Of a stretch of DNA of 64,000 nt, positions 5,793 through 53,484 are shown one piece after another. The position numbers were made by a program, and so were the translations under genes. The number at the start of each line of letters is the position of its first letter. The first letter of the stretch is position 1. The stretch lies in assembly GCA_031213475.1 (NCBI GenBank), contig JARUPZ010000019.1, forward strand, positions 4,200,901 through 4,264,900, in the 5' to 3' direction. Below the pieces are notes generated by a model. The model saw nothing but the letters and a program-made list of their open reading frames with translations, searched no databases and was not told where the DNA came from. The stretch is from Nereocystis luetkeana (lineage: Eukaryota > Sar > Phaeophyceae > Laminariales > Laminariaceae).

Positions 5793-8700
5793 ATGCGGTT
5801 GTTGCTGGTTCGGTTGCTGGTTCGGTTGTTGGTGCGGTTGTTGCTGTTGTTGTTGTTGCTGCGGGTGCGGTTGTTGGTGCTGGTGGTGCTGGTACTGGTA
5901 GTGGCGATGCTGCTGCTGGTGCTGCTGTTGGTGCTGCTGCCGCTGCCGCTGCTGGTACGGCTGATGCTGCTGGCGCTGCTGGTGCGGCTGGTGCTGCTGG
6001 GGCCGGTGCTGCTGGTGCTGCTGCTGCGAATCCTGGTGAAACTGGCGTGGGTATGGCGGGCGCTGCTGCTGCTGCTGCTGCTGCTGTCGGAACGGGTGAT
6101 TCTGCATCTGGAACCCTCCGACCCTGCCCATGTTGGGGCCAACCATCCCACCCGTCATTCCTCTGTTGACGGAAATCACGGGTGCGGGCAACGTCGAAGG
6201 TGGCACCACCCGAAGGCTTCCCCTGCCCCCCCCTGCCGACTGTGTCGGGGAATTCGACGTGGCGCTACCGTCAGCGACAACAACGACAGCGCCGGCGCCG
6301 GCAACGGAAGCCTGAAATGCACCGGCCGGCGGCGGCATACCTCCCCCTCCAGGAACACTTGCGGAGGGTACGTCCACGGGTTTTACGAGAGCGTCGGTAG
6401 GGATGGTGTCGGAAGCGGCAGCCGCCTTGGCGTAGTTGGTGCCGTGACCCCGGTAGTTGACGCTCAGGTTCGAGAAACGGGAGAGGACTGGCTCCTCCAG
6501 TAGCCTGTCCACGAGCATCTCGACCGCCTGGACGGGAATGTCGGTGGTCGAAAAAAGCGCGCACGTGTATGTATACCAGGTACGGGTGTTAGTTGACACC
6601 GCGGCGATATCATACATGGTAGTCGACTAAACTATAAAAATAGTGGGTGTACATATCGAGCGTTCACGCTTGCAGCTATCGCCCTCGAGAAAGGATGACT
6701 GAAAAAGAGAGACTACCTGTACGCTCTTCGTGGGCGGGAAGGAAGGTCAGGAGGGTAGGGCGGCTAGGAGCGCCGGGCGGTTTTCGCATCGGTAGCAAGC
6801 GCAAAATAATGTCAATCGAAAGGTCGAAGACATACCTCTGCTAATAAACGTCGAAACGCGTGTGTTGACCGAAGTCGTTCAGTGCCCTGACGACGAACGT
6901 CGTAGCTCTTATAATACATAATATATATATATATATACATATTTAGCCCCTAGCGTGAACATATCTTGCAGTCCCTTGCGCCGGTTCTACCAGGGGATTG
7001 ATGAACCTCGGAGCGTGTTATCGGCGAGAGGCTGTATCGACCCCCAAGGTACTAATTGTGTTCGTAAATAGAGGATAAGCCACTGAGCCACTCAGTCAGC
7101 TCTAACGGAGAGGTCTATAGCAGGTAGTGCTACATGACCAACAGGTTCCTTCATATTACCATTCATTGCCTCAAGCTAACCGCACTAAACGATGTGCCGT
7201 AGAGGGCGGCGGTAACCGCCTCGTCCATACACTAGCTGGGTAGGTGCTGAAGGTGAAACAGACGCCACGGAGTTATGTCCCAGTCCGGTCATTCCAACGT
7301 ACCTACATATTTCGCATCATCTACCCCCGCTAGGAGGCTTGCACCACCCGCGGGCACCGACACTTCGTTGAAAAACAAAAACCGTGTAACACCGCAAGCG
7401 ACGCCAGGCTCGAAATGTGTTTCATGTTCGGCAGGGAAGGGGGCGAGTGTCGTTAACTAACTTCAGTACTAAAAACAAAACTATTATGTTTTGGTACAAA
7501 AGTCCAGGCAAAGTCTCTCAACGATCTACAGCAGTACATTACTTGGACAACCCATGAACAAATCCCAGGTCCAACCCATAGTTTGAACTCAATTCCGCAA
7601 AAAAAAACAAAAAAAAACTCGAAATGAAATTGTCGGAAAGGTGACTAAAAAGACACCAAAAAATAATGCGCCTGCGACAGGCAACAAAAAAAAACAATTG
7701 CCCGCACATTTAAGGATCCGCACATGCCAGCTTTTTTAAGGTGAGCTGAGCGGAATTCTGACGAAAAGGGTACGCCAGCGCAAAACATGTTACCAGGTAC
7801 CACCCAATATTCACCACCTAAAACCATGAACTGCACCATGGTCCATTCCATGGGGCACATATTTTCCATGGATTGCACCATGGAACATATCGTGGTTATC
7901 CATGGTTGGGTCCATGGCGTGCCCCATGGTCTCGTCCAACTCGAGTAGAACACCCAAATTTCTCAACTCCCAATCGCGACTGCAAGAACAAAAACTCAAA
8001 ACTATCCTGGTCTATAATTTCAAGTAGTGTTGTCACACAAGCAAAGCGGTTGTAACCCCCGCCCCCCCCCCCCCCCCGTCCCGAAAGTGCACCCACCCGT
8101 TTCGGGGGCCATCGTGTTCGGAGTCAGACAGATAAGACACTTCCAGCATGTTTTTTCTGCGGTGCAGTATATATAGTAGGCAGTAAACGCGTTAATTGCT
8201 GTATGTCACACCCCGACGTTCGTGTCTTTTAGGGCAACCTAAACCGGTCAAATTCCAAGTAATTTGTCCCCGAGACGGGACTGACTGCAGCTTTCGCCCC
8301 AGAAAGCGTTGATTCACGCGACAACACAGCTGCTATTACGGGGGGTCATATTACGAGGGGTCATAGTCAATAGGACCTATGGTATACACAAAAACCTATA
8401 TATATATATATATTCCTATACTCACAAGATTTGGTCCTATTCACTACCAGGTATGGTCCCCCGTAATAGAAAATAGGACCAAATAGTGTTACTAGAAATA
8501 GGTAAATATATACCTGGTAGGTTGATGTGCGTACCATGGGTCCTATTTACTACGGTCCCCCGTAACAGCGTTCATGAATAGCTGCAGAGCCGGGCCGGCC
8601 TGGCCTAGCCTCCCTCACCTTGTTCGCCGCCGTCAGTTTACCCTGCACCGTGACCATCCTCTCGTGCACCCTGATCTCGGCCTTCTGCCCGAGGGTCACC

Positions 8701-11700
8701 TTTGCGCCCGAGGCCTCGAGGAGGGCGGTGATGTTAGCCCCCTTGCGCCCGATCACCAACCCGCCGGCCGTGAGTGGGATGAGCATGCGCTGCGGGAGGG
8801 GGAGCGGGTTGGGACAGGGACAGCAACGCGTTTTTTTTTTTTTTTTTTCAGCGGAGGCATGATTTGAAAGGGTCGGACAATCTGTCACATACATGCCGTG
8901 CAATAATCGGTAGCTATGTTCCACGGAATGGAGGCATGATAGCGGGGGAAACGAAGCGGTGAGCCGTGCAGCGCACGTGGTGCATGCCGTCGAATGCGCC
9001 GCGCCTATCATGGGGCTACGGCAGTATGAAAGAAGCACTCACTGCTGTCACGGCTATTATTAATGGTATTGCGGGGGACCATAGTTAATACCAGGTACCT
9101 GGTAGGACCCAATATTGTGAGTAAAAATGGTTAAATATTCTTGTACAGGTTTTTATGTATATCATAGGTCCCATTAATTATGGTCCCCCGTGATAGTAGC
9201 AGCCCATGGCGTCACACCGCGAACTTTTGAATCAGAGGCAACATCGTTTAAAGTTGTCATAGTTGTCACATTGATGGGGACGTTTTTCCTTCAGAATAAA
9301 GATGTTGTATCGTTCGCGTTGTGGCCGGTGTAGTGCCTCTCTGTGGTCGGTGTTGATGAGGTTGCACGAAAGTGACGACACAAATGAGTAGAAAAAAAAG
9401 AAAACGTGGAGAAACACGCATGGTTGGAGGGTGCCCGCTTGTTGCCAAAGCCGTACCTAGAACCGCAGTCCCGTTTCGGGGACAAACCAGTCAAATTTCG
9501 AGTAGTTTGTCCCCAAAACGGGACTGCGGTTCTAAAGGGGTTTTAAATGGTAATATTATTACTATTAATACTAACTTATTCGATGCCACCGGTATTAAAT
9601 AGTAGAGGTTACAACTTCTTCGACCACTATTAATACTGCTGTTGTATGGTTGTCGCAGACTGTTCACGAGACGAACACTACTATTAAATATTATTAATAA
9701 TAACCCCACACGTTCTTAAAAATTACTGTACTTGATTGGCTTGGGGTAAGATTTTTCGGGAGATGAGACCGCAAGGTAAAATCGGCTCGTCACGAGAAAA
9801 AAAAATACGTGCTTGCTTGTGGGAACTACAGCAGTAGTAGTAGTATGGTCAGTTTTGAAAGAGTAGACCATGTGTAAAGAAAATACTATACCAGGTAATA
9901 CGTATAAGGCGTTGTCACGGGGTGGCCTTTTGCTGTATCAGTAGTTTAAAATAGTGCAGTGTACATAATATATGCACCTAAATGTGAGTGTAATTGCATG
10001 CAATTGCAAGTAAGTGCTTTGTCCCCACAGCGGGAGTGCAGTCCCACTACTACTATTACGGGGGACCATAGTTAATAGGACCTATCGTATACATAAAAAC
10101 CTATATATTTAACCATTTTTACTAACAATATTTGGTCCTATTAACTATGGTCCCCCGTAATACTGTAAATACTAAATGCACGCCACCACTCACTGCTGTT
10201 CTGTGCCAGGCCCCGTGTAGTCGTGTCGCACAAAGCAGCGACCCTCAACCGTATGCAAGCGTCCAATAAACGGTGACGTAACCCTCTGCCTATTACGGGG
10301 GACCATAATTAATAGGACCTGTGGTGTACATAAAAACCTATATATTTGACCATTTTTACTAACAATATTTGGTCCTATTAACTATGGTCCCCCGTAATAG
10401 TGCAGCCTAGACTGGTACTACTACTTTGTGATTCACTATGAATAGGAGATGCACAGGAAGAAGCGATGGAGAGGAGGGAAGAGGTGGCAACTGCTGTACT
10501 CTCGCACTGTTGTTCAACAGAACAACAGAAATACTTCGTGCATACCAGGTAAATACTTCGTACATAATTAGTACATAATTAGTATATACCTGGTATATAT
10601 ATATATATATACCTGGTCTATGGTTCAAATGTTCAAGAAGAGTGTAGCGCTTGTGGACATAGCAGCTGCATATGGTTGTGCACACCAAGTATATAAAGAC
10701 CGCTCGCTGCGGGGAAAGCGAGCGGTGGAGGGAGGGTGGCTCAACCAGTATTGAGACCTACCTACGGTGGATGAAACAATAATAGTGTGCAAGTTGCCCT
10801 ATACGGGGCTAATTTTGCTTCAAATACATATAAATACCTGGTACGAAACAGCAGTGACTCGACCCAGAATCAGCGAAATGGTTGATGATGCACGCAAACG
10901 CCTCATTAATCTTCTTTCCGAGAAATGTCCAAAGCGGTGGGTTAGGGTTATTCGGCTGGTCTTCAGCAGAAGTAGTACCATAGCAGATTTTTTCGACAGG
11001 GTCACGTATTTTCTTTCAATCATTTCGGCGAAGCGAAGTCAGATCGAAATAAAACGGCTCATTTTGAAATACTACTATTAATACTGTAATCACCGACCTA
11101 TCGAACAGTTCCTGGATAATTCCTGCCATTCTACCGGCTATAACCCCGCCACATTCTATTTCCGCCAAATATATACCGATGAACCACCAGTTGATCACGA
11201 GTTTTTTTCTTTCAAAATGTAAGACAAATATATGACATGAAGCAAACAGCCTTCATTCAGGGTAACAGGGTCGTTCGTGTCTATGTGCGTTTTTTTTCCG
11301 GTATCATATCGGTATCGTATCGATATCGTATTATCGTTCGGCATCCAACACTACCTGCCTCCTGTACATGCCATAGGCATGGATATCGAATAGCACTTCA
11401 CGCAAAGCAACGAACATCAAGGTACGGTCACAAAAAGGCCGTACGAGTACAACATCAGTAGTCGCATATGGTCCCGCGAACGTTCTGTGGGCCTTTCCAG
11501 AAAAAAAAATCTCGGGACTCTCTTCTCACTTTTTTACCGCACCAAAAATTTCAACCTAAAAAAAAATGACCTGTTGATTGTACTCAAGAACACGACCCAT
11601 GAGATCCATCGTAGACTGAGGAGTTCCATGTTGAAAAGGGATTCTGGTAGTAGCGTATTGGGATATCGGGGTAATGTGGGCCCTCCAATGCCACTCGTTA

Positions 11701-20137: not shown

Positions 20138-21738
20138 ACAACCGACCTCCAAACCCAAAAACTGCGCCGAGTTTGGGCCTTTTTTTTTAACAACTGCTCC
20201 TCCTTTGGTAAGTACTCGTGCAGCAGCAGTAGACTCGTAGACCTGCACCATACATACTCGTTGAGCCGCTGCTTCAAACAAGCTTTTCAACGAGCACTAG
20301 GAGTACCCCTACACATACAAACAAACGTGCATACGATACAACTTGCACCAGCACTGCACATACCAGGTACCAGGTACGCACCACGTACCAGGTAGACATA
20401 CGTATTGAAGTATCTAATGTTTCTCGTGCTTCGTAGGCAGCGGCGCCATTTTTCTGTTGAAAAACGGCGTCCCCTCCCGCGGCGACACCTACACTCATAC
20501 GAACGGACACCCTATTTTGCTCCACACCCGTGCCGCACGGGAAATTTCGTCGACCAGGATCGCCTTAGGCTACCCCCTCCCCTACCTTCCTTATCACGAG
20601 GAAAGCTGAGTTTCCGCGCCTGCAATCAGGACGAGTACGCATCCAGTCTGCATCGCTCACTACATCCAAATGACGTACCACTCTTTCCCTAAATATAACA
20701 ACCATTTCTATACTAATAATCAACGAAAACGGTCCCTATATTTAGGTACACAGCGGTAGTCCTCACCTGTAGTACCAGGTACAGGCAAGGTGCCTTACGC
20801 TACCATACACACGATAGATCATCAGTGCTCAGTGCTCGGGGCACTCGTCATGAATGATGTCACCAGCAGGGTACTAAAACTTACTAGGTCACTTGTATAA
20901 ACTTACTTGTTTTGTATGCCTTGAATATCTCGCGCGGCGCGTATGACTGTGGGTGGGTGAGTCGGTGGGTGAAGGTAGCATATACACCACTTCCTAAACC
21001 AATCAGACCCGATCAACCAGTGTTGGATAGATGACCCCCCTTCCTGTGTGTCAACCATCTTCTCGAACATATGTCAACGTCTGCTGAATTGGAGTGGTGG
21101 GGTGGATGTCATGACGTAGTGGTGTCTTAAGACGTCTCGAGACGCGCCACCCCCCCCCCCCCCCCACCTCCTCGTAGATCCGCGCGGGACGAAATAAACA
21201 AAATTTTAGCGAATCGAACCTGGGAGAGGAAGGATCGGACGGAAGGTCAGAGGATCAGAGAGTTCCACACGCAAAGGGGTCAAATATGTGCCATTATGGA
21301 CGCAAATATAAGGACCGTTGGGTCTTGATATCTATATAGAAACGATCCTTACATTTACGGCCAGAGTGGTATCTTTACATTGAAAAATTATGTATAGAGC
21401 CTCATGTCGGGGGTGGAGATATACCTACAATATGAATCGCTATCGGAAGTATTTTACGGGGGTGACGGAAACTACGGTGTGTGTGTGTTCTTCACATTAA
21501 ACCGTTCTTTCTACGGTGCGTGAAAGCGGTACGTACGAGTCACGGACCGCCCCTGGTTGTGCTGTAAAAAAGAGCGGTTCAGCGGTCAAAGGCGCGGACC
21601 CTGGGCCTACTGGCCTGCTGGGTGCTGGGTGTGCCGTTGAACGGAAAGCCAAGAGATTCGTTGGTGGAGAGCACAGGCCCTCGGGAAGTGCTGGGTGCCG
21701 TTGGATGGAAAGAAGGGTTCAGCGGGTGAGAGACGACG

Positions 21739-21793: not shown

Positions 21794-23749
21794 TCTTGAA
21801 GTCCTCCGTACACACACCCTTTCACGAGCGAGCGGAGGGCACAAGTATGTATCATATCAGTACGTATACCACTAGAAGTGTTTTTGGATGATGATTGATA
21901 CTCCGGTTACTGTCGTATATTGGGAGCGCTCTTGATGCTGTACTCCTGTGCAAAGACTCTAGCCTACCTATTAGGTAGTGTTCGCGCTGTCGCTAACCGC
22001 GTTGCTGCAATGGTTTCACGTGTTGCACCTTGAAGGCGAAGGCGAGGGTGATATAGGACCGTGAATACCCAGCACGGGCGGGTGTTTTTTTTTTAGAGGA
22101 CCAGTCTTTTGTACCCCTGTGCGTGTTGGGCCTTGCCTGAAGAATCAACTCTTGGCAGGCGCTGTAACTACTACTGCTGTGATGCAAAGAAATAACTCAG
22201 TTGAGTCATCCATTGTGTTCCGCAAGCTGTTTGCCTCCCCATATTGTACCAGGTAGTTTTATCACACACACAAAAAGAAAAAAAAAATCGAAGACGGCAC
22301 AGGCACAGACTTGAAAAAGAGACCGTCCTCCGCGTCGCTCCTTGGCGTCGGGCGTACCGACGTCGCTGCTTCGCCAGAGCCGCGCTTCGCGGCAGCTCCA
22401 AGACGCGCTGCCTTTTCAAACAGGTATATAGTGCACCGTACGCGCTCCCTACTGTAGACAAGACCTTTGGCGCCTTTAGCAGCAAAAGACGGGAGGGACG
22501 GGAGGGGTAGTTGCCGATCCCGACCACACACATCGACAGAGCGTTGCAAGAACGAACAGCAGTCCAACGTCTGCTTGCTCATGATGTGACACTTTCAAAG
22601 ATCGCTCGACCCACTCACTCACCCACCCACGCACCCACCCTATCACGTACTCACCCACCCAACTCTAACCCGCTGTCGTTTCGTTCCGTACCATGTCGCA
22701 TGCCAATGCGCGCGCACACGTCTATGCCTACTCCGGAGGTCGATAGTGAGGAGAACCCACCGTGGACCCCAAAAGACCACATATACTCCCATATTTTTTC
22801 GTGCCATATTTCGGTTCTGATTACCGCTGTGATGTGTTCCCTCATACTTTCCAGGTATACATCATATTATTCATACGTAGTACCAGTATATATGATCGTT
22901 TTTGAGTTGTTGTTTCTTCCCTTGCCGGCAAAAACGGCGGACAGCCTTTTTTTTATACGGTAAGTTTTTGCTTTTCGTGTACTACGATATTAATAGAAGT
23001 ACAGTATTCAATAGCATCCGTTGTTTGCTGTGCTCGGTAACCCGTTCGGGATTGTGCTCCTCCCGCTGTGGTGGGCAAAGCACTTGGAATTAGAGTAGTA
23101 GCTTGGTCTGTGTACGGCGGTGCGGTGCCAACAAGGGCGAAAGACGATCGATTGCGGCCTACGATACCACGTGAGGGTTGTGCACGTTGACGCACGACAG
23201 AGACGGCTTACAGCACTCGTGTTATCATGGCTCTGCGCTGTCCTTGAAGTTCAAGTCGGACCCCGTCGCTCGAATGCGCCTCCTGCAGGGTGTCTGCCCT
23301 CCCGCGTACCTTGGGGGTGCAGTGAGTGTGCCCTGTGGGCGTTGGTGGTTGCTCTCGTTGGCATGTCTGGGTCGGGATGCGATTTTCCAGCGCTGCGACG
23401 GGTGCTTGAATTCTCCGGCCGTTTGCCTGTACGGTATAAGCCCTGCTTGCACTCTGTACGGGGCCCTCCCTGTTTTGGGTCAAGTTGATGTTTGTCTACA
23501 ACAGTGTTAATAAATAGTAGACTATTAATACCAGTAGAATAGAACAATGATGCTGAAACTGCGTACCGTTTTTTCTGTGTATGTGCGATGCCATTTGTCG
23601 CGATTCAAAACAGAAGATAAATATTAATACTATTAATACTACTGTAATACCAACTGCTATCAGCGATAGAGCTGTGGATGCACGCTGATAGTGAATATTT
23701 CCGGGTTTTTGGCCGTGATGCCTCAAGTCGACCACCGAACCCCAACCTT

Positions 23750-23843
23750 AACCCTTTTAGAACCGCAGTCCCATTTTGGGGACAAACTACTCAAATTTCA
23801 AGTAGTTTGTCCCCAAAACGGGACTGCGGTTCGAAAGGGGTTA
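23750..23843. mobile_element. Family B hairpin MITE (B2)
   Basis: A canonical copy from AACCCTTTTAGAACC to GGTTCGAAAGGGGTT, with perfect GTCCCC/GGGGAC inner arms. Confidence 0.95.
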
Positions 23844-24258
23844 ACCTGAATGCTATGGGGTGACCAGTGCTTGGATGCTGTGGCTTGTGAGACCTCTAGG
23901 TTGATTCGGCCGGCTTGGATGCTGTTCTTGGAAAGGTTCTAGGCTGATTTGGCCGGCTCGGGATGCTGTGGCTTGGAAAAACTCTAGGTTGGTTGGGCCG
24001 CTTACAAAACACCCCTTAGCTAATCAGAGTGCGCGAATAGCCTACCTTGGGAAGATCCACTATCTGGGGGCAACCCCGGTTGGAGCGATACTATGAGTAC
24101 CAACCATGTGGTCTAATTTTTACTATTATTGTACTTCTTACGATCCGTAAAATTCATATTAACATGAAGCTATTGAAAAGACCAGCAAAGGAGACCTATA
24201 CGATACACCGCGTTTTTTTTTATTATTTTATAAAACGCTTGAAAAATCGATCCGTTTC

Positions 24259-27780: not shown

Positions 27781-28209
27781 TTTTTGGCGAGGGGCTTGGT
27801 GGAAATGGACGTATTACCATACCTTCTGCCCACCTCGGACATGTAATTAGACGCTTTTTATGGCTCGTTTTCGTTTTCGAGGAAAAGCGCACAGAAATTG
27901 TACGTACACATGCAGCGAGGAGTTCATTATTGTGCGTGTTTCGAAGATTCGTGTATTTTCGAGAAAGATGTGTTGCGCAAACAAAAATTAACCCCCTTTG
28001 CGTACTTTCGACTTCATTTTTTTCTTTTCTTGTAAACCTTTTGCGTATTTGTCGTGACTTTTCGTGCGTTTAACCATATGGTTGACGCACGGTAGCATTT
28101 GTCGTGATTTTTCGTGCCCTCTGACCCAATGGTTGACGAAACGAGAGAAGAGATTGGGTCCAGACAAGATCACGACCTAAGCTGACGATCTTGGCAACCA
28201 ACATTTTTT

Positions 28210-28303
28210 AACCCTTTTAGGACTGCAGTCCCGTTTTGAGAACACACTACTTACAATTTGACTGGTTTGTCCCCAAAACGAGACTGCTGTTCTAAAAGGG
28301 TTA
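28210..28303. mobile_element. Family B hairpin MITE (B3)
   Basis: AACCCTTTTAGGACTGCAGT to TGCTGTTCTAAAAGGGTTA. The left arm is more diverged (TTTTGAGAACA) than the right. Confidence 0.9.
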
Positions 28304-28739
28304 AATGTTGAGGTCTGCGGGCCTTCAGGGACATGCCGTTGTTTTTTGTGGACAATTAGTAATATGCCCCTTTAGATTCGCACTCCCGTTCCGTGGACTA
28401 ATCACCTGCAACTAGAGTCAAATGTATGTTTCTGCACACTGACTGCGGTTATCTGAAATGGTTGAACCTCAGCTACGTACGTACTCACTGGATGTGAGAT
28501 CGACAGCAGGCTCTCGTGGTTATTTTTTTTTTTGCGTGTGTGTGTTGGATCCCCCGTTGCGGTGGGGAACAATTTCGAATGACAAAAAACGACACCTCGC
28601 GAACGCCGAGTAGACGCAAAAGCGCCGAGGAGGAGGAGGACGAGGAGGAGGCGCGTCGAAGACCAGTGCGTTGTTGGTTCCTGCGTGGGTTAGAGGTACA
28701 AGGAGGCGCTGGTATTTATGGGTAGGTTCGCAGCACACC

Positions 28740-28925: not shown

Positions 28926-29202
28926 ACACACACACAACAACAAACACAAACACATTCGGATGGTTGCATCAGCAGCAGCAGCAGCAGCAGCTGTATCATC
29001 CCATATGTAGTGCACGTGCTGCTGTAGATTGTTTCGTATATTTCCATTTGTGCCAATATTCTCGGTGGGAAGGTCGGGTTTTTAACGCTCCCAAAAGCAG
29101 CGAGCATTGCTGACATCCACCGGGTGCTGTTTTTGTGCAGTACCTATACCTCAGAGGGTGCTCGGCAAATACGTAGAGAAAATGAAAACACAGTCAGTCC
29201 TT

Positions 29203-29296
29203 AACCCTGTTAGAACTGCAGTCCGGTTTTGGGGACAATTTATTCAAATTCTAAGTAGTTTGTCCCCAAAACGGGACTGCGGTACTAAAAGGGTTA
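29203..29296. mobile_element. Family B hairpin MITE (B4)
   Basis: AACCCTGTTAGAACTGCAGT to TGCGGTACTAAAAGGGTT; point changes only. Confidence 0.92.
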
Positions 29297-29433
29297 AAAG
29301 GTGGAAAAAAAACATGGAGATTCGGTGGGATTTCTGGACGAAGTAACGAAAAGCGAGTATTCTTTGTTCTTGTTTTTGAAGTCTACTCGCTTTTGTTTAT
29401 ATGGTATGCCCCCCCCCCCCCCTGCCCCCGTCT

Positions 29434-31156: not shown

Positions 31157-31400
31157 TACTGTACTGTACTGTACTGTACTGTACTGTACTGTACTGTACT
31201 GTACTGTACTGTACTGTACTGTACTGTACTGTACTGTACTGTACTGTACTGTACTGTACTGTACTGTACTGTACTGTACTGTACTGTACTGTACTGTACT
31301 GTACTGTACTGTACTGTACTGTACTGTACTGTACTGTACTGTACTGTTCTGTACTGTACTGTACTGTACTGTACTGTACTGTACTGTACTGTACTGTACT
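31157..31400. repeat. (TACTG)n satellite, about 48 units
   Basis: A pentamer array that is almost pure; one unit has TTCTG near 31346. It is preceded by ACTACTACTTAACTACTACT. It produces a Cys-Thr-Val-Leu-Tyr frame that is not a gene. Confidence 0.98.
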
Positions 31401-31689
31401 TACTATTAATCGGTGTGTTCTACATTAAACCGTTCTTTCTGAGCTGTGCTGCTGTACTGTAGTTTTCTACTACAGTTTTGTACTGTACTGTACGGTAGAT
31501 GATCTAGATATTCACCTGCCGGTATATGAGAGATATATTAATAGGAGTTGTGCGTTGTACAAACTCTGTATTTTAATCGTACAGATTCAACCCAAACCCA
31601 GGAAACATGTCCTACGCGGTACATACGGTTGTACGGCGGACTGAACAGAATATGATCATCAATAATGAGCGCGTGTCTGACAGGTGTTC

Positions 31690-34600
31690 TCCGCATTTAG
31701 TGTTCTCCGCATTAAACCGTATTTTTTTCCGTTTTTCTATATAATACCCGTCGACATCCAACACAACCAGTGTCCGTGCCTATTCTTGATTCTTCGATCT
31801 TAGACTGTAGAGAGATACAACAAACTATGTGGTCACGATATGTACAACTGTTTAACACTGAGTGAGGTACTGCTACAGCAGCAGTCATTACCCTGTTTAT
31901 ATGTACGTACGCACGTACTGGCGTTGTTTCTTTAGCTCTTTCTACAAGAACAGACACACACATACAAGTATCTGCCACATGCCCCCCCCCCCCCTGCTGC
32001 GGGGGGGCTCGACAGTTTTCTCGTCTCTTTTTCCTTTCTTTCTTTCGATTTGTTGTACTCCGTATATGTTTTGTTTCTTGTTTTTTTCGTTTCTCTTATT
32101 ATCTCTCTCTTTCGTAGAATGTGTATGTCGTGCCTGTCGTGTCCAGTATAGTGAGATGTCTCTGCATTGTCTACTCTTCTTACAGACAGCAGTACTGCAT
32201 ACCTGGTACTGCTCAACGTGGTATCTCTGCTGAGGCGTAGTTTTGTGACCACAGAGCTTGTATCTCTCTAGGATTGAAGCATCGGCACGGGCACTGGTTG
32301 TGCTGGATGTCCACGGGTAGAAAGGACGGTTCAATGTGAAGAACACACAGACATGGTACTCGTAGACAATGTGCAATACCATGTCATCGCACCGGAACAG
32401 GCAATGGTACACCTGGTACACTCGTAGACATTGCGCGATGCCATGTCATCGTACCGGAACAGGCACGACATACACATTCTATGAAAGAGAGAAAGATCGA
32501 AAAATCGAAAGAAACCGAACAGAGGGAAACAAATATCAATAGCAGAAAATGGCAAGCATAATAATAATAGCAGAAAAAGCAAAGAACGAAAGAAAGGGTG
32601 TCGTGCCACCCAGAAGGAGAAGGAGATACGTGGCAGACAACACAAAAACAAGCAGAAGCAGGAAGAAACAACACCGCCACACATAGACAGAGCAAGACTA
32701 CGTATACAGCAGTAGTAACATACCAGGTATATATCATGATTTAGTCGGAATCGATTATTATCTCCCCGAGGTGCGGACTTTCCCTTGTCATCATCTTATT
32801 ATCCCCTTTGGAACTGCATCCATCCACGCCTTTTTTTTTAGGAAAACTATTTGAATTTTCTTGGGAATGGGACCCAGACCTATACGAGGCAGTGTTCTCT
32901 TGTTGTGGTAAAACGATGAAAAGGGTTGGTGCCGGGGTGTTCAGAAGTGTTGTGCTGCTTTGCTGTAGGATTGATCGTCCTCATCGGGATCGTCATCGTC
33001 GTCGTCATTTATTATACGATCACCATAATTGAGTTCTTCCCTCTTATTTTCGTCGATGATAGATGTTTTTGTTTCAAGACAAAAAACACACACTCAAACA
33101 CTTTTTTCGCGATTTTGCTCTTTTCCCCCGTACGATGTACCTGGTATATATACTAGTAACTGCAAAAATTGTTCCAGCGTGTACTAATTCCAAGTAATTT
33201 ATCCCGAAAAACGTGGATGGGGGCAGTTGCTAATAACTAACAAAAGGCGCTAATTTCATCCGTCTAGGACTGCACTCCCCTTGTTGTGGGGATAAAACAC
33301 TTGGAATTAGAGTTAGATTTAGGTTTCTGTAGGGACACTTTAGTTTTTCGTTCTTCCAGTTTTGTTTTCGTTTGTTTCTTTCGTTTTTTCTCTTTTTCAT
33401 TGAATGTGTGTGTGTCGTGCCTGTCGTATCCAGTACGGAGGACAAGGCATCGCATACATGTATTCTCTGCTTATGACTGCAAGAACAGTCGTATGTTGTC
33501 GACAGACCTCGCTGTGTCGTAGTTTTTGTGACCACACGAACAAGAAGAGCTTGTATTCTACCTGAATCAACACTGCTGTGTGTTCTTCACATTAAACCGT
33601 TTTTTCTACCCGTCGACATCCAGCGCAACCAGTGTCCGTGCCGATTCTTTAATGTGATCCTCAAGAGACACAACAAGTTATGTCACAAAAATACGCCACA
33701 GAGATACTATTAATATTAATAGATTGTTATGACGTAATAAGCAGTACCAGGTATAAATAATAGTAAGGCTCATGGCTCATAACCTACTAGGTACTGGTAA
33801 GGCGATTGGCGTGTGTGCCAGCTCGTAGCTGGTGTGTACGCCTAGACTCGATTGCCGATGGCCGGCAATACACAGTCAAAATGTTCGAGGCAAACACGTA
33901 GTCACTGTCAGGTGACTTGTACGTGAAGCTTCAAAATAGAAGAGAAGAAGAAGAAGATGGTGTGGTGACCCCAAGCCACATTGTTGATTGATTGCTCAGC
34001 TGGAAGCTGATGATGGTGAGCAAAAGTAGACTTAAGCAGTATTACCCTAACGAGGGGACGTATTGGAGATGATACTTGTAAGTAACCATCTGTCGTTACT
34101 TGATAATACAGAGTCGTCTGGTATACATAGCGTAGCATACGTACCACAAGCAGCCTTGTTTGACGTGTATCGTATTGTTGCTGTAGTTACTTTAACTAGT
34201 ACGTACGTAGCTTGAGTGTGTGACAAACAACAGTTTACAAGCTGTGTCGTTACTGATATGTGATGAAGTATATGTACAGTATCGTACGTACGGAAGTACA
34301 TGTGTACATGTAGCGGGACTGTCATATCCAGTATCCCTCTTAGAACCGGTAAGGTTCGAGATTTGCCACAGGGTACTGATTTGAGCGCACCCTAGCAGTT
34401 GAGCTGTTGGAGTAACAATATTGGCTACCGGCTAGGGTCATGGATTGATTGGGGTGGTATCTTTTCTGTTTTTGTTATTTTTGTTGCAAGCACAAGCACG
34501 CATCGTCCCCGCCCACATAAGCCCACTCTACATCTGCTCATCATCATCAGCCCATCTGCTGAGCACAATCAATCAACACTAACCAGGAGTCGCCAACAAC

Positions 34601-35756: not shown

Positions 35757-36608
35757 TTAGACCTATCTATGCCAATGGAAACGCGAATTTCAAAAGTTTT
35801 TTGTCAAATATATCGCTTTAAAAAACAGCCGAAAAATTTCCCGTACCACCGCTGTGGGAAAAACTGAGAAAACTGTTTGGTTTTTTCTTTTTTTTCTCCC
35901 AACGGCTGCAGGCGGCGCAATTTGTGTTATTCTGGTCGCAAATTGTCAACACGGTGATCGAAACCAGCTCGTGCGACGATCGACGCTCGATCTCGACATA
36001 GACTCAGCCCACGGCCAACCCACTCGGTATCTGGCAAGCCCAACGAGTATAGATGACGGCCTCGAAGATATCAGGTGGATCCATGGTCTAGGTAGGGGGC
36101 GAGAGCTTGCCGGCGGCGTCCTACGGTATCCTCCCAAACCTGAAAAAAACTCTATTTTTAGCCATTCGAGACGGACGGAGAAGTTTTGTCTTCTGTTTTG
36201 TGCAAACCAGCGGCCAAATGTTTTTTCATCACACGCCTGGTCAGCTCCCGCCACATGACACCGGCCATGGTGTGAAGACGGTGACCCTAGGGTGGGTCGG
36301 AGCCCCTAACGAGCGCACTCCGTTCAGAATTCATGACGCAATCGTTGGTTTTGTTGATCGATGTCTGTCGAGGACTCGGAATCTCGCCGCTTCCAACCAA
36401 AGATCGGCCTGAGTTTTCCTCAAGCCGATGTTGGCCCAACATTGGCCCCAGATTTGCTTTTTTTGGGCTTTTCCAAAAGTTTTAGGAACTTTTTTTTTTT
36501 TCAGGTGGCCCATAGGAAGCGAGTTCTGATTTGTTTTGGCGGGTATCTTTGAAATTCAAACTTTTTTTTGCAACTTCGCTGTACCATTGGCATACCAGGT
36601 AGGTCTTA
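35757..36608. mobile_element. Family F transposon-like element (F2)
   Basis: A near-identical sibling of F1. Three of its few length differences from F1 are TA-bounded additions: TATCTA for TA in the left end (about 35766), TAGGTA for TA (about 36090), and TACCAGGTA for TA in the right end (36593-36601). Confidence 0.85.
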
Positions 36609-43440: not shown

Positions 43441-43445
43441 TGTAG

Positions 43446-43613: not shown

Positions 43614-43670
43614 TGTTGTTGTTGTTGTTGTTGTTGTTGTTGCTGTTGTTGTTGTTGTTGTTGTTGTTGT
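43614..43670. repeat. (TTG)n microsatellite
   Basis: About 19 units with one CTG interruption. Confidence 0.96.
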
Positions 43671-43863: not shown

Positions 43864-43898
43864 GACTCTAGCCCAAACCCTAACCCTAACCCTGACCC
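43864..43898. repeat. Interstitial telomere-like CCCTAA repeats
   Basis: CCCAAACCCTAACCCTAACC then CTGACCCC: about three CCCTAA units with flanking variants. Confidence 0.75.
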
Positions 43899-44723: not shown

Positions 44724-47285
44724 TCATTTCCGCATGAAGGCCTCCGCCCCTTCCTCGACCCGTCGGAACCATCTGCCGGCTTTCTGTGCTGCCTCGCGCC
44801 ACCCTTCGAGCTTGATGCCGAACTCCTTGAGGTCCTCCTCAAGGTACCTCATCCAGTCCCACTCCTATCCTCCGGAGTAACCCTTACCCCCAACCATCTC
44901 CCCAAACATCACCCTCTTCGGCAGACGCTCCTCTCCCATGCGTGTCACAAAGCCCGCAAACAAGAGCCTACGTCTGCGTACCGTCGTCGCAACGCTCTCA
45001 GAGTTTGTCCTGAGAAGCGCGCTAGCATAGGATATCATGTGGTCTTCGCGCTTTCGTTTTCGCCAGCCGATGCGTCGGAGGAGCATCTTGTGGTGGACCT
45101 CCCGTAGCGTACCGTAGTCAGTCTTGCTCGGGCTCCAAGTAACGCAACCGTAGAGCAACGTTTCGACCACCTCGGCTCTCAGCATTCGCACCTTCAGGCG
45201 TAGGCGCACACCCGGGCGGTCATAGATTTCCATATTATACCGTCCGAAGCATGCCCATGCCCTCTGGAGTCGACGCGTTACCTCGACACTTCTGCCCGTC
45301 CAATCTGCGCTGATAGCCCCGCCCAGATACACAAACTCGATCGTTTGTTTGTACACTTGGCCGGCTGCGGTGACGGTGAACGGCACGTTCCCCCCATCTT
45401 TCGTTTGCAGACACATTATCTCCGTCTTGGCCTCCGAGACCGTCAGGCCGAAAGCGGCACATGCAGACACGATCACCGTCATCATCCTCTCCAGGCCGTT
45501 GGGTGATCTCGATACTATGCCCACATCGTCAGCATAGAGCATAGCCCACAGTGTCTGGGTCTCGGTATCATTCCCCTGTCCGTCGGCGTGCCCGGCCCGT
45601 GCCTTCCCCCTCTTCTTTTTTTTCTTCTCCTGTTTTTGTTGGAGTTGCACCAAGCTGTCCGTGATGGCTTCATCAGCAGCGAAACGCTTCTCCGCCACAC
45701 GCAGCACCGCTGTAAAAAACATGTTGAACAACAATGGCGCGAGCACACACCCTTGCCGTAGGCCCTGTTTCACGTCTAACATATCTGAGCACTCGCCGTC
45801 ATCCAGCCGCACGCATGCTCGCATGCCGTCGTGGAATTGGCGGATAACGGTGAGCATTCTAGGTGGCACGCCAAAGCGAGCCAAGACAGCCCACTGGAGG
45901 GTTCGGTCAACGGAGTCATAGGCTTTGGTGAGGTCGACAAAGCACATGAACAGCGGAGTGTCCTTCTTCCTTGCCAATTCCTGCAAGCGTCGCACCACGG
46001 ACATCATGTCGACCGTCGGTCGTTCGGGCCTAAAGCCACACTGCTCCTCTGGCAGGATGCCGTCCCGTTCGCAGTAGTCGCTGAGTCGGCGCGCGATGAC
46101 TTTGAGGAGTACTTTGCCGGCATGCGCGACAAGGGAAATGCCACGATAGTTACCACACTCCGTCCTGTCTTTCTTCTTGTGCAGCACCTTAATCGTTGCA
46201 TCCTTCCATTGCTGCGGCACGACCCTTCCCCTCCACACAGCGACGATAATCTCGTAGAAGCTTCCCAAGGTGTCCGAGTCTCCCTCGTCGGCCAGGACCT
46301 TCAGAAGTTCAGCTGGGAGACCATCAGGCCCAACCGCCTTGCGGTTCGCCATCGCCCTGATCGCGTCTTCCACCTCGTATCTAGACGGGACGTCGTCCAG
46401 CGGACTGCACGAGAGCCAGACCTTGAGCTCATCGACGATAGTCGAGTCGAGGGTCGATGACTTGGTGTTTTGCAGCTTATGGAACCACCTTACCCATCGT
46501 TCCCGGATGAGGCCTATGTCTCGTAGTAATCTACCTTCCTCGTCCCTGATGTACTGCGAATGAAAAGTCCTCTTTCCTTCCACATTCATCCCCTTAAGGT
46601 GCTTGTAGAACCCAAACTGATCGCCTTCTTGGATACGCCTTTCGAGTTGACGGGCGTATTCCTCGAAGAACTTCTGCACTCCGTCCGTCCTCGCACGTTT
46701 GAGCTGTTTAGTGGCAATCTTCACAGCTTTTCGCAGATTTTTGTCTTCCGGGTTAGCACGTAGTTGCGTCCTCGCATTTTCCTTCTCCTGCCATCGTGAG
46801 TGCACCTCTGCTTTCACCTCTTCGGGCGTACACCAGCCCAGCGGTCCTTGTTTTCGACTGGTATGAGGTGCTAGTTTAGCAGCAGTCGACAGCACGGTCT
46901 CCACTAGAGCAGTCGCCTTATCATCGATACTCCCAGTTGTACCAGGCGGTGGGGGGGTAAGTTTGGTTATCTCCCTATTGAGGTCCGCTCGGAGACCGGG
47001 GTCTGCCATCAACCGTTGTAGATCAATAGCTCGTTTTCCGCTGCCTGCTTTTACCCTCCGATTCGGCGCGAACCGACCCAAGAGGCGAATATTGTAGACC
47101 ACGAGGTTGTGGTCAGATTCATGCCGATCCTCTGGTGGTTTCCGTACTGTCATGTTGCGGACCAGGCGTCGATCAACTTGCCGAGTAAGGATGTAGTCTA
47201 GCCTACACTGACCCTTCCCGGAGTTTGGAGATTGGAAAGTGTACGACACCCCGCGAGTAGGCAAAGAACGTGTTGAGGAGCGCAA
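44724..47285 (-). CDS. LINE-2 ORF: endonuclease end plus reverse transcriptase
   Basis: A long frame (853 codons from the first Met at 47285, which is unlikely to be the true start). It first carries the end of an EEP-type endonuclease (HESDHNLVVYNI). The RT follows, with FVDLTKAYDSVDR (motif A), QGLRQGCVLAPLLFN (motif B) and the catalytic YADD near 45,527, then thumb-like VYLGGAISAD. An in-frame TAG at 44867-44865 interrupts it; the reading continues EWDWMRYLEEDLKEFGIKLE to a TGA at 44726-44724. It copies RNA into DNA at a nicked target site in the family. With the stop and upstream frameshifts this copy is probably dead, though the RT core looks intact. The clade is not assigned. Confidence 0.85.
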
Positions 47286-48390
47286 GCCTGTTGTCAGCTG
47301 CGTGGAGGAGTAGTCGCTCTCCGTTGTTGTTCAATTCATCGCGGCCGTATTTACCCATCACCTTACTGCCGGCACATCCGCTCTCGCTTGCCGGTGCGAG
47401 CATTTGCATCCAAGAGCACAAGTAGGTGATCCCCACTTGGGATCCCCGAGACGACTTTGTTCAGTTCGTTCCAGAAGTGATCTTTCTCGCGAACGGGTGC
47501 ATCCAGTATCGGCGCATAGCCGACAAACAAAAGAAACATCTTTTGATTTGCCCTCAAGTTGAATGCGAACTTTCATCAGTCTGGCACTAACGCACTCCAC
47601 CTCGAGACCATCCTTGCCCACACCTGCCACAATAGACTCCCTGACAGCTAGTCCTACACCATGGGTGCCCTTCCTCTCGTATTTGCTGCCGTCTGCCCCA
47701 GAGCAAAAAATCGTGTATCCAGCTGCTGTGAACGTGCTATGCCCGTCTCGCCTAGTCTCTTGGAGACCTACGACATCGCATCCTAGTTCCTGGCATACCT
47801 TCATGATGACCTCGCTGTCTGTGGCCGATGCCATTTTTGCCGTTGAAGGCGAGTGTGCGGACATTGAACGTACCCACGACGAGTTCCCCAGCTCTGTAAC
47901 TAGCCCTAGCATCTGAGCGTAACCTTCGAGCCTCTCTGCGACCTTTCCGACCTTGCCTCCTCTTCTTCCGTGCTGCGTGTTTTTTCTCCTCTACCCTCCG
48001 CTTTTCCCAGGCGGTGGGTTTCTTCCGTTCCGTGTTTTTTCGCCCGGCCCGGTTCGTGCCGAGGTTCCGACGTGCTGGGGGCAGCAAACCCAACGCGCCT
48101 CGACGCCCATCATCTCCTAGATGACGCCGAATGGGGTGCTTACTCACGTGGATCCTAGCCTCTCTTCTCCGTTCGCTACGAGTTCCACGCTTTCGGCGAC
48201 GGTGATACGACACGGCTACCGCAGGCAATACTGCCGCGTGGAAAAAATCCGCGAGGAAAAATTCCGCCATATCGCTGGCCATCACCGCCGGCTCGACCAT
48301 GCTCGAACGCTAGTCAGACGCGCAAGCAAGGTCAAGGCCGCGCTCCACTGGGAGCTCCACCCCGGCCGGGGAGCAGCCGAGGGGCGACCC
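47203..48390 (-). pseudogene. LINE-2 5' part: endonuclease with frameshifts
   Basis: An Arg/Lys-rich N-terminal part leads into GELVVGTFNVRTL (start of the EEP fold). It continues in a different frame with CQELGCDVVGLQETRRDG and KGTHGVGLAVRES, then in another with DHLLVLLDANAR, then another with LNTFFAYSRGV. At least three frame changes fall at about 47,850, 47,550 and 47,400-47,260. The endonuclease would nick target DNA; this copy cannot make it intact. Confidence 0.8.
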
Positions 48391-48404
48391 TAACCCCAAC
48401 CCTA

Positions 48405-49162: not shown

Positions 49163-49267
49163 TTACGGGGGACCACAGTTAACAGGACCTATGGTATAAA
49201 TAAAAACCTTTACATTTAACCATTTTTACTGACAATATTTGGTCGTGTCAACTATGGTCCTCCGTAA
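49163..49267. mobile_element. Family A MITE (A6)
   Basis: TTACGGGGGACCACAGTTAA to GGTCCTCCGTAA, with TA on each side. Confidence 0.92.
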
Positions 49268-49577
49268 TAGCTAGCACGCTGTGATGCCTTTGATTTTATA
49301 CCCCGGAGAGGCGGGCAAAAGGAAAACGGGGATTCTCCTTCCTATACATTCCCCGCGTTGCGCTGGCCTGGTACAAAGTATACGTATACGGTACTCGTAC
49401 GAATATATATGTGTGAAAGTGTGAAGAGGATTATCCAGCGGTCGGCGCGCGCGCGGGGGGGGGGGGGGGGGGGGGGCGGGGGGGGTGGCACAAATAGTGG
49501 CAACTCTACTTTATACCAGTACAGCGGGTTCCAGTCGTGCCATGTAGCGAATCACCGGCACAATAGACAGCAGTGGC

Positions 49578-49581
<4 letters not shown>

Positions 49582-49628
<47 letters not shown>
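49582..49628. repeat. (TAC)n microsatellite
   Basis: About 15 units, followed by TATTAAATATTAATAC. Confidence 0.97.
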
Positions 49629-49629
<1 letters not shown>

Positions 49630-50099
49630 TTAAATATTAATACAGAGTACTTGTATTGACTATTTATTGACTATTTATTGACAGCCCCCCCCCCCACCTC
49701 TCACTGCGCTGTACGTATACCACTATGTCCCGAAATATAATCACCGTTTAGTTTAACAATTTGTCTTTAAAAATTGCTTATATTATGGGGCAGACAGCCC
49801 CCCCCACTGCGATGTACGTGTACGTACCAGGTGTATGATATCATATACTGGTATAAAAATATGGAGCGGTAATATGCTACTGCTGTATGCCATGTTTGAT
49901 CGGGATTGTAGGGAGGGGTGTCCTTGGATAAATAAGCCTGAAAAAAAAAAAAAAAACTCTCCTCAGTATATATATAGCGCTTACTTACATAGTACCAGGT
50001 ATCGCTTTACAGATTGACTGGCAGTCGTACAGCATAATAATCGTAAATAAATACAAAGACCGCATTCTATATTATTTTTTATTGTTATTCCTCTTGCCA

Positions 50100-50240
50100 T
50101 TTATATTGTTGTGAGGGTCGTATAGTCCGTTGGGCTAAAGGTAAAAGGTTAACCAATCGCCTACCCAATCTAAAGCCTCATAACACTCTCCCCCCCTGGA
50201 ACGGACCGGATTTTACACGGGTCGACGAGCCACCACACGC
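50100..50240 (-). mobile_element. Family D-related SINE fragment
   Basis: In reverse it reads GGGGGGAGAGTGTTATGAGG then GGTAGGCGATTGG, matching the body of the 48.4-kb element (GGGAGAGTGTTATAAGGATT). Confidence 0.55.
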
Positions 50241-50312
50241 ACGCGCGGTTCCAATTTCTTGGGATCCACAAGCATTTTTCAGATTCTTGACATGAGAAAA
50301 CTCACTTTTCCT

Positions 50313-50407
50313 TAACCCCTTTAGAACCGCAGTCCCGTTTTGGGGACTAACCAGTCAAATTTCAAGTAGTTTGTCCCCAAAACGGGACTGCGGTTCTAAA
50401 AGGGTTA
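50313..50407. mobile_element. Family B hairpin MITE (B10), near-consensus
   Basis: AACCCCTTTAGAACCGCAGT to TGCGGTTCTAAAAGGGTTA, with few arm mismatches. One of the youngest-looking copies. Confidence 0.95.
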
Positions 50408-50415
50408 AAAAGCGA

Positions 50416-50485
50416 TTTCATGGTGGACGTGAGATTCGAACTCACGACCAAAATGACTCATATGTGTTCTGCCGTCTCGTCGCCT
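50416..50485 (-). tRNA. tRNA-like relic (T-arm intact)
   Basis: On the minus strand CGTGAGTTCGAATCTCACG forms a perfect five-pair T-arm with a B-box. The 5' half does not fold as a D- and anticodon arm, so this is probably a SINE head or pseudogene, not a working tRNA. Confidence 0.35.
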
Positions 50486-50639
50486 TTTGTGAGGGTCTTC
50501 TCTTACTTCGTTGGGCTGATTAAAGGTAAAAGGTTACACCAATCGCCTACTTACTACCCAATCTAAGCCTTATAACGTTGCTTGATACACTAAGGGTCAT
50601 TATATTTTGGGGGGGACAGAGCGGTACGATTGCTATTGT

Positions 50640-50895
50640 TTTTTCTTTCGTTTCTCTATTTAATAGAATGTGTATGTCGTGTCTGTCGTATCCTAGTATG
50701 ATGACATGGCATCGCATTGCCCACTGCTGTGCTTACTGCATACCAGGTACGTGGCAACGTAGTGTCTCTGTGGCGTAGCTTTGTGACCACAGAACTTGTA
50801 TCTCTTCTAGGATTGAAGAATCGACACGGACACTGGTTGTTGTGCTGGATGTCGACGGGTAGAAAGAACGGTTTAATGTGAAGAACACACACACA
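50640..50895 (+). mobile_element. Family G repeat, long copy
   Basis: Body (AGAATGTGTATGTCGTGTCT) followed by inverted terminal part (GGTTTAATGTGAAGAACACA). It has TACCAGGTA at about 50742 in the same place where the 32.2-kb copy has TACCTGGTA. Confidence 0.65.
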
Positions 50896-51337
50896 TACCT
50901 GGTACTACTGGTGTTCCAAGGAAGGAAGTCTCATCCACTTGCGGAGGACACATTGTATTTGCTGGGCCAGGTATTGTCTGTTATATGTAGGTAGGACTTA
51001 CTCGTATAAGCAGTTGCTCATACCTTCATACAGCAGTACATACATAGTCTCGTCGCGCAGACGTCTGATGCATTTTGATCGTATGATTGATGTGATCCGT
51101 GTAGCTCCATTTCATCTATCGAGGCCCTTTTATTATTGTTTCTTGTGCCATCCGACAATCAATGTGCAGCATGATCTTCAACATGGATCACTCATAACTT
51201 TCCCGAAAGAAGAAAACCTCGGAAACAAAAGGAAACCCATGCACCAAGTCGCCGTCTACCTCCCTTCCGTGCCAACTTTCGGCTTGTCTACTCTATCTAT
51301 TTGGTGTTATTGTTGATACTTGCAGACTACGGCAGTG

Positions 51338-51452
51338 TTACGACGGACTATACTAGGTAGTAAATAGGACCAAACATTGTTAGTAAAAATAGGTAAATAT
51401 ACAGGGTTTTGTCTGTACCGTAGGTCCTAAATACAAATAGGGTCCCCCGTAA
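51338..51452. mobile_element. Family A MITE (A7), reverse orientation
   Basis: TTACGACGGACTATACTAGG to GGGTCCCCCGTAA. It contains TACTAGGTA, a one-base variant of the micro-insertion, in its left arm. Confidence 0.82.
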
Positions 51453-51491
51453 TAGTAGTCTCGGTGCGATGCGTACTATTAATAGTATAAT

Positions 51492-51600
51492 AACCCTTTT
51501 ACTCGTAGGACTATACGTACGGTTCCCTTGTGGGGAGAAACCACTCAAATTCTTATTATTAATAATAGTAATTTGTGTCACCAAAACGGAACTGCGGGGT
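51492..51600. mobile_element. Family B hairpin MITE (B11), diverged
   Basis: AACCCTTTTACTCGTAGGAC to CCAAAACGGAACTGCGG. The centre is replaced by TTATTATTAATAATAG, a palindromic AT addition. Confidence 0.7.
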
Positions 51601-52560
51601 GCTAAGCCACTCGAACTCTTTGTGCTTTGTCCCCGAAACGGAGCTGTGACTGACTGCTGCGGTGCTACGTAGCACTACACGTACGTTCGTTGCTGCTGCT
51701 GCTGCTGCTGCTTCGCCCACTTTTGTTCGCGAGTCGATCGACGACTGATTGTGGTAGTATTGTTGTTGTCATTATTTCTCTTCCCATCCGACAATGCGCA
51801 GCATGTATGTGATCTTCGACATTTATTCTTATTATTATGATGATGCCCGCCTGCCCTCGTGCAGTCTCACGTGTCACTCATCTGTCCCTGTGTCGCCCAA
51901 ATACTGCTGTAGGACACGACCACATTCATTTTGGATTGAATAATACGTACCAGGTACTGCGTAAAAGGACACAAGGACCGTTTTGGATTGAATAGTTGAT
52001 ATACGAACGATCCTTCTCTGCTCGTTTCTTGCTTCCCGTTTCCCGAAATACAACGGGAGTTTTGGGCCGCTTGTATCGACTAGTCTCATACGTGCATGCT
52101 GTCTGTTGTATGCCACCGTATACACCGATAATAATAATAATAGGAGCGGATACATATATATATATACGGATATGATAATTAGCCTTTCGCCCGTTTCCCC
52201 CGCAAAACGAAAGAAGGATCATACATACCAACTATGTCTCACAATATAAGAATCGGTTTTACACTAATTGTTCAACCAAACGGCTGTCATATTTCGGGAC
52301 AGAGTGGTATATATGTTATGTATAAACATACATATATATATATTATGTGTGTATGTGCGACCGAGCATGTAATACGCTGTGAGTAGGGTGTTGAATATTT
52401 TAAAGCGGCATTAATGGTGGGAGGAATCTCTTAGTCTCACGAAGGGCGGTTTTAACCCTTTTAGAACAAGGAACCTTAGCCTCACGAAGGAGAGAAACAC
52501 ACACCCCCCAGCCATCAAACACACATCTTCCAGACAGCTTTCCGGGCGGCCGGTCGCGGC

Positions 52561-53025
52561 CGGGGGGGGGGGGGGGGGGGGGTGTACTCGATAGGAGAGA
52601 TGTACTCGATCTCATGCATGCATGGCCGTAGTCGTACGACCATAGACCCTCGCATCCCTACAATTCAAGGAACGGAGCATGTCGGGTATTCACCGACCAG
52701 GCAGACATTGCTTGAACCAAGCGCGAAGCGCCGTGAGGTGTCCGGCGAGTCGCATATATATGAAGGGTGAGCTGCATCCTGCTAAGAACTGCTTTTAAGG
52801 CGGACTTGCATATATATATAAGGATGACAGCATCAATGAGTTAATTAAGTTTCCGGTGTTGCCACTTCTAGAGACAGCAGTGGGAGCACTATGTGCCTGC
52901 CTCTTGGGGTGCATTACCATAAACACTGGTACGTGATACGATCGATTCCCTTGTTTGTGCAGAGTGAAGGTTCAATACCTCGCACAAATGATCTAACTCG
53001 ACGACCAGCTGTGGGCGACCGCCAA

Positions 53026-53097
<72 letters not shown>

Positions 53098-53190
53098 AAA
53101 CGGCACAATGGTTGTCTAGCTCCTCACTCACTTAGTGAGCGGCATGTTTCACAGAGTGTCGTTGCTAACCGACGCCAACCCAACCTATGC
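52561..53190 (-). mobile_element. Family C element, full length (C4) with (CAA)n expansion
   Basis: G-tract, then TGTACTCGATAGGAGAGATG, to CCAACCCAACCTATGCATAT. The short A-rich spot seen in siblings is here a (CAA)n run of about 23 units at 53026-53096, which gives false poly-Gln and poly-Val frames. Confidence 0.85.
53026..53096. repeat. (CAA)n microsatellite inside C4
   Basis: About 23 pure units. Confidence 0.97.
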
Positions 53191-53204
53191 ATATATATAG
53201 CATA

Positions 53205-53330
53205 TATGTATAAATATATGTATAAATATATGTATAAATAGATGTATAAATAGATGTATAAATAGATGTATAAATAGATGTATAAATAGATGTATAAATA
53301 TATGTATAAATAGATGTATAAATATATATA
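53205..53330. repeat. 12-bp tandem repeat (ATGTATAAATAG)n
   Basis: About ten units alternating AAATAG and AAATAT, starting directly after C4. Confidence 0.95.
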
Positions 53331-53374
53331 TAGTGTGTGGGGGGGGGTAATTCAACGTAGTTGTGGTATAAGTA

Positions 53375-53484
53375 TTACGGGGGACCATAGTTAATACCTG
53401 GTAGGACCTATGGTATATTAAGGCCTGTATATTTGACCATTTTTACCAACAATATTTGGTCCTATTAACTATGGTCCCCCGTAA
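53375..53484. mobile_element. Family A MITE (A8) with CCTGG insertion
   Basis: TTACGGGGGACCATAG to TATGGTCCCCCGTAA. TACCTGGTA at 53395-53403 replaces the TA of AATAGGACC. Confidence 0.93.

Follow-up and report, generated by a model that had tools for sequence, protein, structure and literature searches.

When the Tc1/mariner transposon Sleeping Beauty departs from a site, the scar that it leaves is formed by annealing with a central mismatch. This footprint reads TACAGTA or TACTGTA, that is, three nucleotides plus a TA (PMC4378557); the plant Tc1/mariner elements Stowaway and Osmar leave short tip fragments between duplicated TAs and hit one site repeatedly (PMC1925063), and the scars of the pogo element Passer and of ZB measure 0–4 bp (PMC9976928) and 0–3 bp, respectively, a footprint range of 2–4 bp besides the TA being quoted with the latter (PMC7913693). 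Excision footprints as such are known, and in the excerpts of the literature on which we draw, short, heterogeneous forms are the rule. Here we examine a palindrome, TACCWGGTA, that recurs throughout a 64,000-nucleotide stretch of the genome of the kelp Nereocystis luetkeana (contig JARUPZ010000019.1, positions 4,200,901 to 4,264,900; hereafter the window). The evidence points to transposon excision scars; an initial annotation of the window had described the palindrome as a 7-bp insertion that duplicates a TA and had offered no mechanism. In the open-licence PMC literature, we found no published description of the motif or of one scar form that dominates at genome scale.

The motif occurs 55 times in the window, against a mean of 0.53 and a maximum of 3 in dinucleotide shuffles. 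Across the genome (465 Mb) there are 182,395 copies, approximately one per 2.5 kb, against 1,744 occurrences of the reversed control word. With S (G or C) instead of W at the centre, the genome-wide count is 10,882 (control, 1,899), and the two dominant centres are close to parity when lists are pooled (121 A and 127 T). The 39 A to 16 T at the centre in the window (p=0.003) suggested that the strand is biased by region, a reading that was discarded, as neighbouring copies agree no more than in shuffles. Closer counts refer to a sample of 332 kb, composed of the window, 25 stretches of 10 kb and six loci of 3 kb; the six loci were chosen for holding the motif, and the density in the sample is thus not that of the genome. 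The sample contains 159 exact copies and 148 with one mismatch, whereas two control words yield 2 exact copies each and 45 or 34 with one mismatch; given this abundance of near-copies, the motif decays as unselected, inherited DNA would. Tandem junctions number 9 among the 159 copies, against approximately 1.4 expected if TAs were evenly struck, and apart from these junctions the copies do not stand head to tail, as in a heptamer repeat that grows by slippage.

That sibling repeats within the window preserve the states before and after insertion had been claimed in the initial annotation, and the alignments bear this out (table 1). Four of the cases lie in copies of, or related to, MITE A (a miniature inverted-repeat transposable element, MITE). 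At 8445, ACTATGG has become ACTACCAGGTATGG while the siblings are empty (one adjacent base differs as well, CACTATGG versus AACTATGG), and at 8511 TATAGGT has become TATACCTGGTAGGT, as confirmed by sibling alignment. The copy at 9089 has gained two insertions (at 9089 and 9096), which appear as a 14-bp gap in its siblings, and the copy at 53395 has gained one where its siblings are likewise empty. In element F2, the right end reads GGCATACCAGGTAGGTCTTA, whereas the right end of its relative F1 is empty (GGCATAAGTCTTA), as is the left end of F1 when inverted. For repeat C3 (42385) an insertion is likely rather than certain: the siblings lack the 7 bp but differ in their flanks (TTGAACA, ATGAACA, ATAAACA). 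The further claim that TA becomes TA-CCWGG-TA every time does not quite hold, as there is also an 8-bp form at the MITE A site. A listing of insertions between siblings comprised 225 non-microsatellite entries (certain loci being entered more than once), of which 32 are 7 bp long and 5 are the exact heptamer CCWGGTA; the bulk of the insertions that distinguish siblings are thus of another kind.

MITE A is 109 bp long and flanked by TA, with 23 near full-length copies in the sample besides the intact copy in table 1; copies elsewhere in the genome are 100% identical over the 109 bp, which suggests recent activity.

Across the sample, 148 motif runs were compared with sibling repeats, and a sibling spans the site in 22; empty siblings predominate at 20 of these sites, at one the ratio is 1:1 and at the remaining one the only sibling is occupied. 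A much larger comparison is provided by the exact 17-base site within MITE A, which is empty at 21,233 places genome-wide and holds the 7-bp insertion at 424. Twenty of these 424 occupied places were read, and their outer flanks identify 20 distinct loci; the insertions lie in varied MITE A copies, both MITE arms are used and further motifs stand in the stretch shown for six of the 20. Given the distinct flanks, the varied copies and the use of both arms, insertion at this TA has recurred many times, although some of the 424 occupied places may descend from a scarred MITE that moved.

The TAs that carry the motif are not a random subset. When 141 non-tandem motifs were compared with 18,218 other TAs, the two sides being pooled as mirror images, the flanks conformed to R-TA-Y; position +1 favors a pyrimidine, +2 favors A and +6 favors T (49% vs. 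25% at other TAs, p=1e-18), and C and G are depleted at +7 (p=5e-9 and 5e-10). This symmetric preference extends for approximately 8–9 bp and then fades; it is the signature of a transposase. In a finished scar, position +1 is C and positions +6/+7 are TA, in keeping with the excess of tandem junctions. The 24 insertion sites of MITE A itself that were listed lean instead toward C-TA-G (by hand count, 12 have C ahead of the TA and 17 have G behind it), so an enzyme other than that of MITE A is probably at work. MITE A was accordingly rejected as the source of the scars, its tips beginning TTACGGGG and its site preference being unlike R-TA-Y.

The most specific evidence on the origin of the insertions comes from the rare 8-bp form. 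At the exact MITE A site, all 17 places found with the first pattern read CCAGGG, and the mirror pattern, predicted before the search was made, reads CCCTGG in all 42. In the sample, TACCAGGGTA is found eight times at unrelated loci and TACCTGGGTA not once (0.59 expected for each), and extended-scar words, each counted once, number 14 in the class that includes CCAGGG against 2. Annealing of CCAG(G) 3′ overhangs one step out of register would give exactly CCAGGG and CCCTGG, and CCTGGG and CCCAGG would not be expected. Slippage by one base in a finished scar would instead give both centres, tracking the 7-bp scars at this site, of which approximately one-third have A and two-thirds T; it would not give a fixed polarity in 17 of 17 and 42 of 42 places. 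The ratio of T-type to A-type scars at the MITE A site is 67:33 for the 7-bp form (hand count of the first 100 of the 424 places) and 42:17 for the 8-bp form, a similarity that is as expected under one common strand choice. Because a 3-nt overhang of CCA alone provides no route to CCAGGG, we infer that the lost ends begin with CCAG and that the stagger is at least 4 nt; 4 nt and 5 nt both fit.

We therefore favor, with good though not full confidence, a model in which each TACCWGGTA is the excision footprint of a TA-inserting cut-and-paste element (hereafter X). X would insert at a TA, duplicating it, and would leave by cuts set back into the element, several nucleotides from its 5′ ends; each flank would then retain a 3′ overhang copied from a tip (5′-CCAG or CCAGG). 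The two overhangs would be complementary save at the centre and would anneal to CC.A/A.GG, and repair of the A.A mismatch would then leave the two TAs separated by CCAGG or CCTGG, making the site 7 bp longer. If the overhangs instead paired with a shift of one base, two adjacent mismatches would result, which block repair would resolve into CCAGGG when one strand is copied and into CCCTGG when the other is, giving the 8-bp form. The balance of A and T centres and the polarity of the 8-bp form fit joined tips with a central mismatch, the tips themselves being reconstructed.

Such a scar has the architecture of the Sleeping Beauty footprint, extended by one base pair to the left and right of the centre: as in TACWGTA, the TA is duplicated, tip bases lie between the two TAs and the scar is palindromic with an A/T centre. 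Sleeping Beauty, however, leaves three tip bases and a gain of 5 bp, whereas here the gain is 7 bp, the stagger would be at least 4 nt and the source element was not found. Insertion at TA with TA duplication is seen here as in footprints of the Tc1/mariner and pogo groups, but the five bases CCWGG between the TAs fall outside their range of 2–4 bp. Passer and ZB likewise represent few-base scars of these groups, and the excerpts of the two papers describe no CCWGG form. Stowaway/Osmar footprints are heterogeneous (1–4 bp tip fragments), whereas here one form dominates at genome scale. Mobile GC clusters of yeast mitochondria are likewise short, palindromic and inserted with duplication of a small target, but they are tens of bases long and organellar, unlike the 7-bp scar.

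Several observations weigh against the excision model. Neither the 332-kb sample nor the six DDE_1 transposase matches examined yielded X. TA-bounded inverted CCWGG ends in the sample are chance scar pairs only, among the pairs listed. No match to the DDE_3 or Transposase_1 transposases was obtained in the genome, although for the latter the control queries were equally without match; DDE_1 has 28 matches, none tied to the scar, and TA-CCWGG inverted ends are absent at the six examined (stretches L043, L044 and L065–L067). At the MITE A site, CCWGG is followed by a base other than T in 48 places (17 of them the 8-bp scar CCAGGG) and CCAG by a base other than G in 21 (16 of them CCAGT, which could be 6-bp scars or element ends); judged without the outer flanks, these 48 and 21 places reveal no obvious single terminal sequence. 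The polarity is also imperfect, since 2 of the 48 places, which lack the exact right flank, read the disfavored CCTGGG, and in the sample CCTGGGG and CCAGGGG occur twice each. CCTG between TAs is enriched too (22 vs. 8.8 expected; CCAG, 39), and blunt-fill products of CCAG or CCAGG overhangs number none in the sample, at most 0.02 being expected by chance. Moreover, the uniformity and number of the scars are unusual: known scars vary in the excerpted accounts of Tc1/mariner and pogo elements (0–3 bp; 0–4 bp), and rice DNA-transposon excisions are perfect in only 8 of 94 cases according to the portion of the literature available.

Other routes to a source gave nothing. Among 143 listed insertions of more than 50 bp between split siblings, none carries CCWGG at both ends (by eye). 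Candidates for a resident element sought by inverted ends at TAs were rejected, the listings yielding MITE A, a TTAA-ended hairpin element, other repeats and foldback-like pairs. A bias toward A among single-tip scars (CCA, CCAG) was set aside as proof, other TA-N4-TA words being equally enriched. The hairpin element is 97 bp long with TTAA at both ends (window 23748–23844, 28208–28304, 29201–29297 and 50312–50408) and is perhaps a piggyBac- or Kolobok-type MITE. One of the examined transposase stretches (L067; G000:C34:4443801-4450000) contains a 1.9-kb inverted duplication, 99.5% identical, with two DDE_1 matches.

The excision model has to be weighed against readings in which no element departed. 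The motif might have been present ancestrally, with subsequent loss from its siblings, the outcome that the initial annotation had named as its refutation; both the 32200 and 50741 copies of one repeat are occupied (centre T and centre A, respectively) and one of the 22 spanned sites has an occupied sibling only, yet the excess of empty MITE A sites, the scattered and varied copies that are occupied and the nested double insertions contradict it, and loss would need to have been exact thousands of times, so that we give this reading virtually no credence. An unlikely but more serious contender is a self-contained micro-insertion, in which a recombinase or repair process adds CCWGG and a TA at preferred TAs and no element was ever present. 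It would account for the failure to identify a resident element or transposase, for scars that far exceed any candidate donor in the sample and for their unusual uniformity; it sits poorly with an 8-bp polarity (59 of 59 at the exact MITE A site) that resembles out-of-register joining of identical CCAG 3′ tips, and with a symmetric target preference of the kind typical of transposases.

The huge number of constant scars and the lack of resident elements in the sample could also reflect programmed or domesticated excision, whereby elements resembling internal eliminated sequences (IESs), with CCAG ends, are removed by a host-owned excisase. Ciliate IESs are indeed bounded by TA, but Paramecium-type excision leaves a single TA. 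The scars here decay as inherited DNA, and their recurrence inside MITE A copies, some of them near consensus, argues for continual insertion, making this reading very improbable. We accord slightly less weight still to a heptamer simple repeat or a selected motif. The highly iterated palindrome HIP1 of cyanobacteria, linked to methyltransferases in the excerpt consulted (PMC4390886), is a similarly over-represented short palindrome, but the motif here is inserted and decaying, and its plentiful mutated copies, as under neutral decay, argue against a constraint of the HIP1 type. Tandem runs do exist in the kelp genome, and contigs of bacterial metagenome-assembled genomes include 40 stretches (L068–L107) with at least three head-to-tail TACCWGG heptamers, several of them in single bins (Chitinophaga CAMDUE, Acidimicrobiia JANTGE, Deltaproteobacteria JAUYJH) and, by estimate, in excess of chance for one 23-mer. 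The bacterial stretches are tandem, mostly of one centre and with 0 to 2 motifs outside the runs per stretch, whereas in the kelp singles prevail, dispersed at TAs, with A and T centres mixed; the two look like different phenomena. In viral contigs, the double motif is present in nine stretches, the triple motif in none and the MITE A arm in none.

Returning to transposon excision, we advance only tentatively the more specific proposal that the enzyme is of an undescribed type, with a CCAG(G) stagger of 4–5 nt, responsible for approximately 180,000 near-identical 7-bp insertions and for scars that outlive or far outnumber its elements. Were that so, the genome would preserve departures like fossils, to be dated by the decay of their scars, and would document the joining of staggered ends by the host, whether in register or shifted by one base. 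Transposon departures are usually hard to count, their scars being short, mixed and like chance words; a uniform and frequent scar would render them countable, datable and mappable genome-wide, and the rare 8-bp form would reveal the polarity of ends that have vanished. The scars would also constitute a natural in vivo record of staggered-end annealing and of mismatch resolution (approximately 2:1 at one site, near 1:1 when pooled), and, if the excision model is true, excision is one of the main ways in which this genome has gained insertions of 7 bp.

Table 1. Positions in the window of the motifs and repeats discussed; sibling alignments are scored as empty or occupied.
Feature	Position	Strand	Basis
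Putative scar TACCAGGTA in MITE A copy 8349–8468	8445..8453		Sibling alignments: 25 empty, 0 occupied
Putative scar TACCTGGTA in MITE A-related copy	8511..8519		Sibling alignments: 26 empty, 3 occupied
Two nested putative scars TACCAGGTACCTGGTA in MITE A copy 9067–9195, hotspot TTAATA^GGACC	9089..9104		26 empty, 0 occupied
Intact MITE A copy of 109 bp, bounded by TA on either side; arm used as scar trap	10054..10162	+	Alignments
Cluster of three motifs, two with a common TA	20361..20394		Motif count in window
Motif, centre T, in repeat homologous to the 50741 copy	32200..32208		Alignment; scored 1 empty, 0 occupied
Putative scar TACCAGGTA at right end of F2 (aligned to F1 over 35757–36594)	36593..36601		F1 comparison
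Likely scar in repeat C3	42385..42393		14 empty, 0 occupied
Motif, centre A, at position homologous to 32200	50741..50749		Alignment; 4 empty, 1 occupied
Putative scar TACCTGGTA in MITE A copy 53373–53485, hotspot TTAATA^GGACC as at 9089	53395..53403		20 empty, 0 occupied
Motif whose right TA is the start of MITE A copy 53785–53893	53778..53786		Repeat alignment

For the motif at 53778, either the MITE may have landed at a scar or the scar may have arisen at the end of the MITE. The window also contains a 248-bp TACTG array (31157–31404, 98% matches), whose unit TA-CTG resembles a chain of Sleeping-Beauty-type scars, although the array may be an ordinary microsatellite. An open reading frame for a reverse transcriptase of the kind without long terminal repeats (non-LTR; 44868–47330, minus strand) is 91% identical to an ENA protein and 54% identical to one from Ectocarpus, and contains none of the 55 motifs. 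On the same strand, KH-domain open frames at 4965–6626 and 8553–9038 may be exons belonging to a single gene, whose long introns would contain several motifs.

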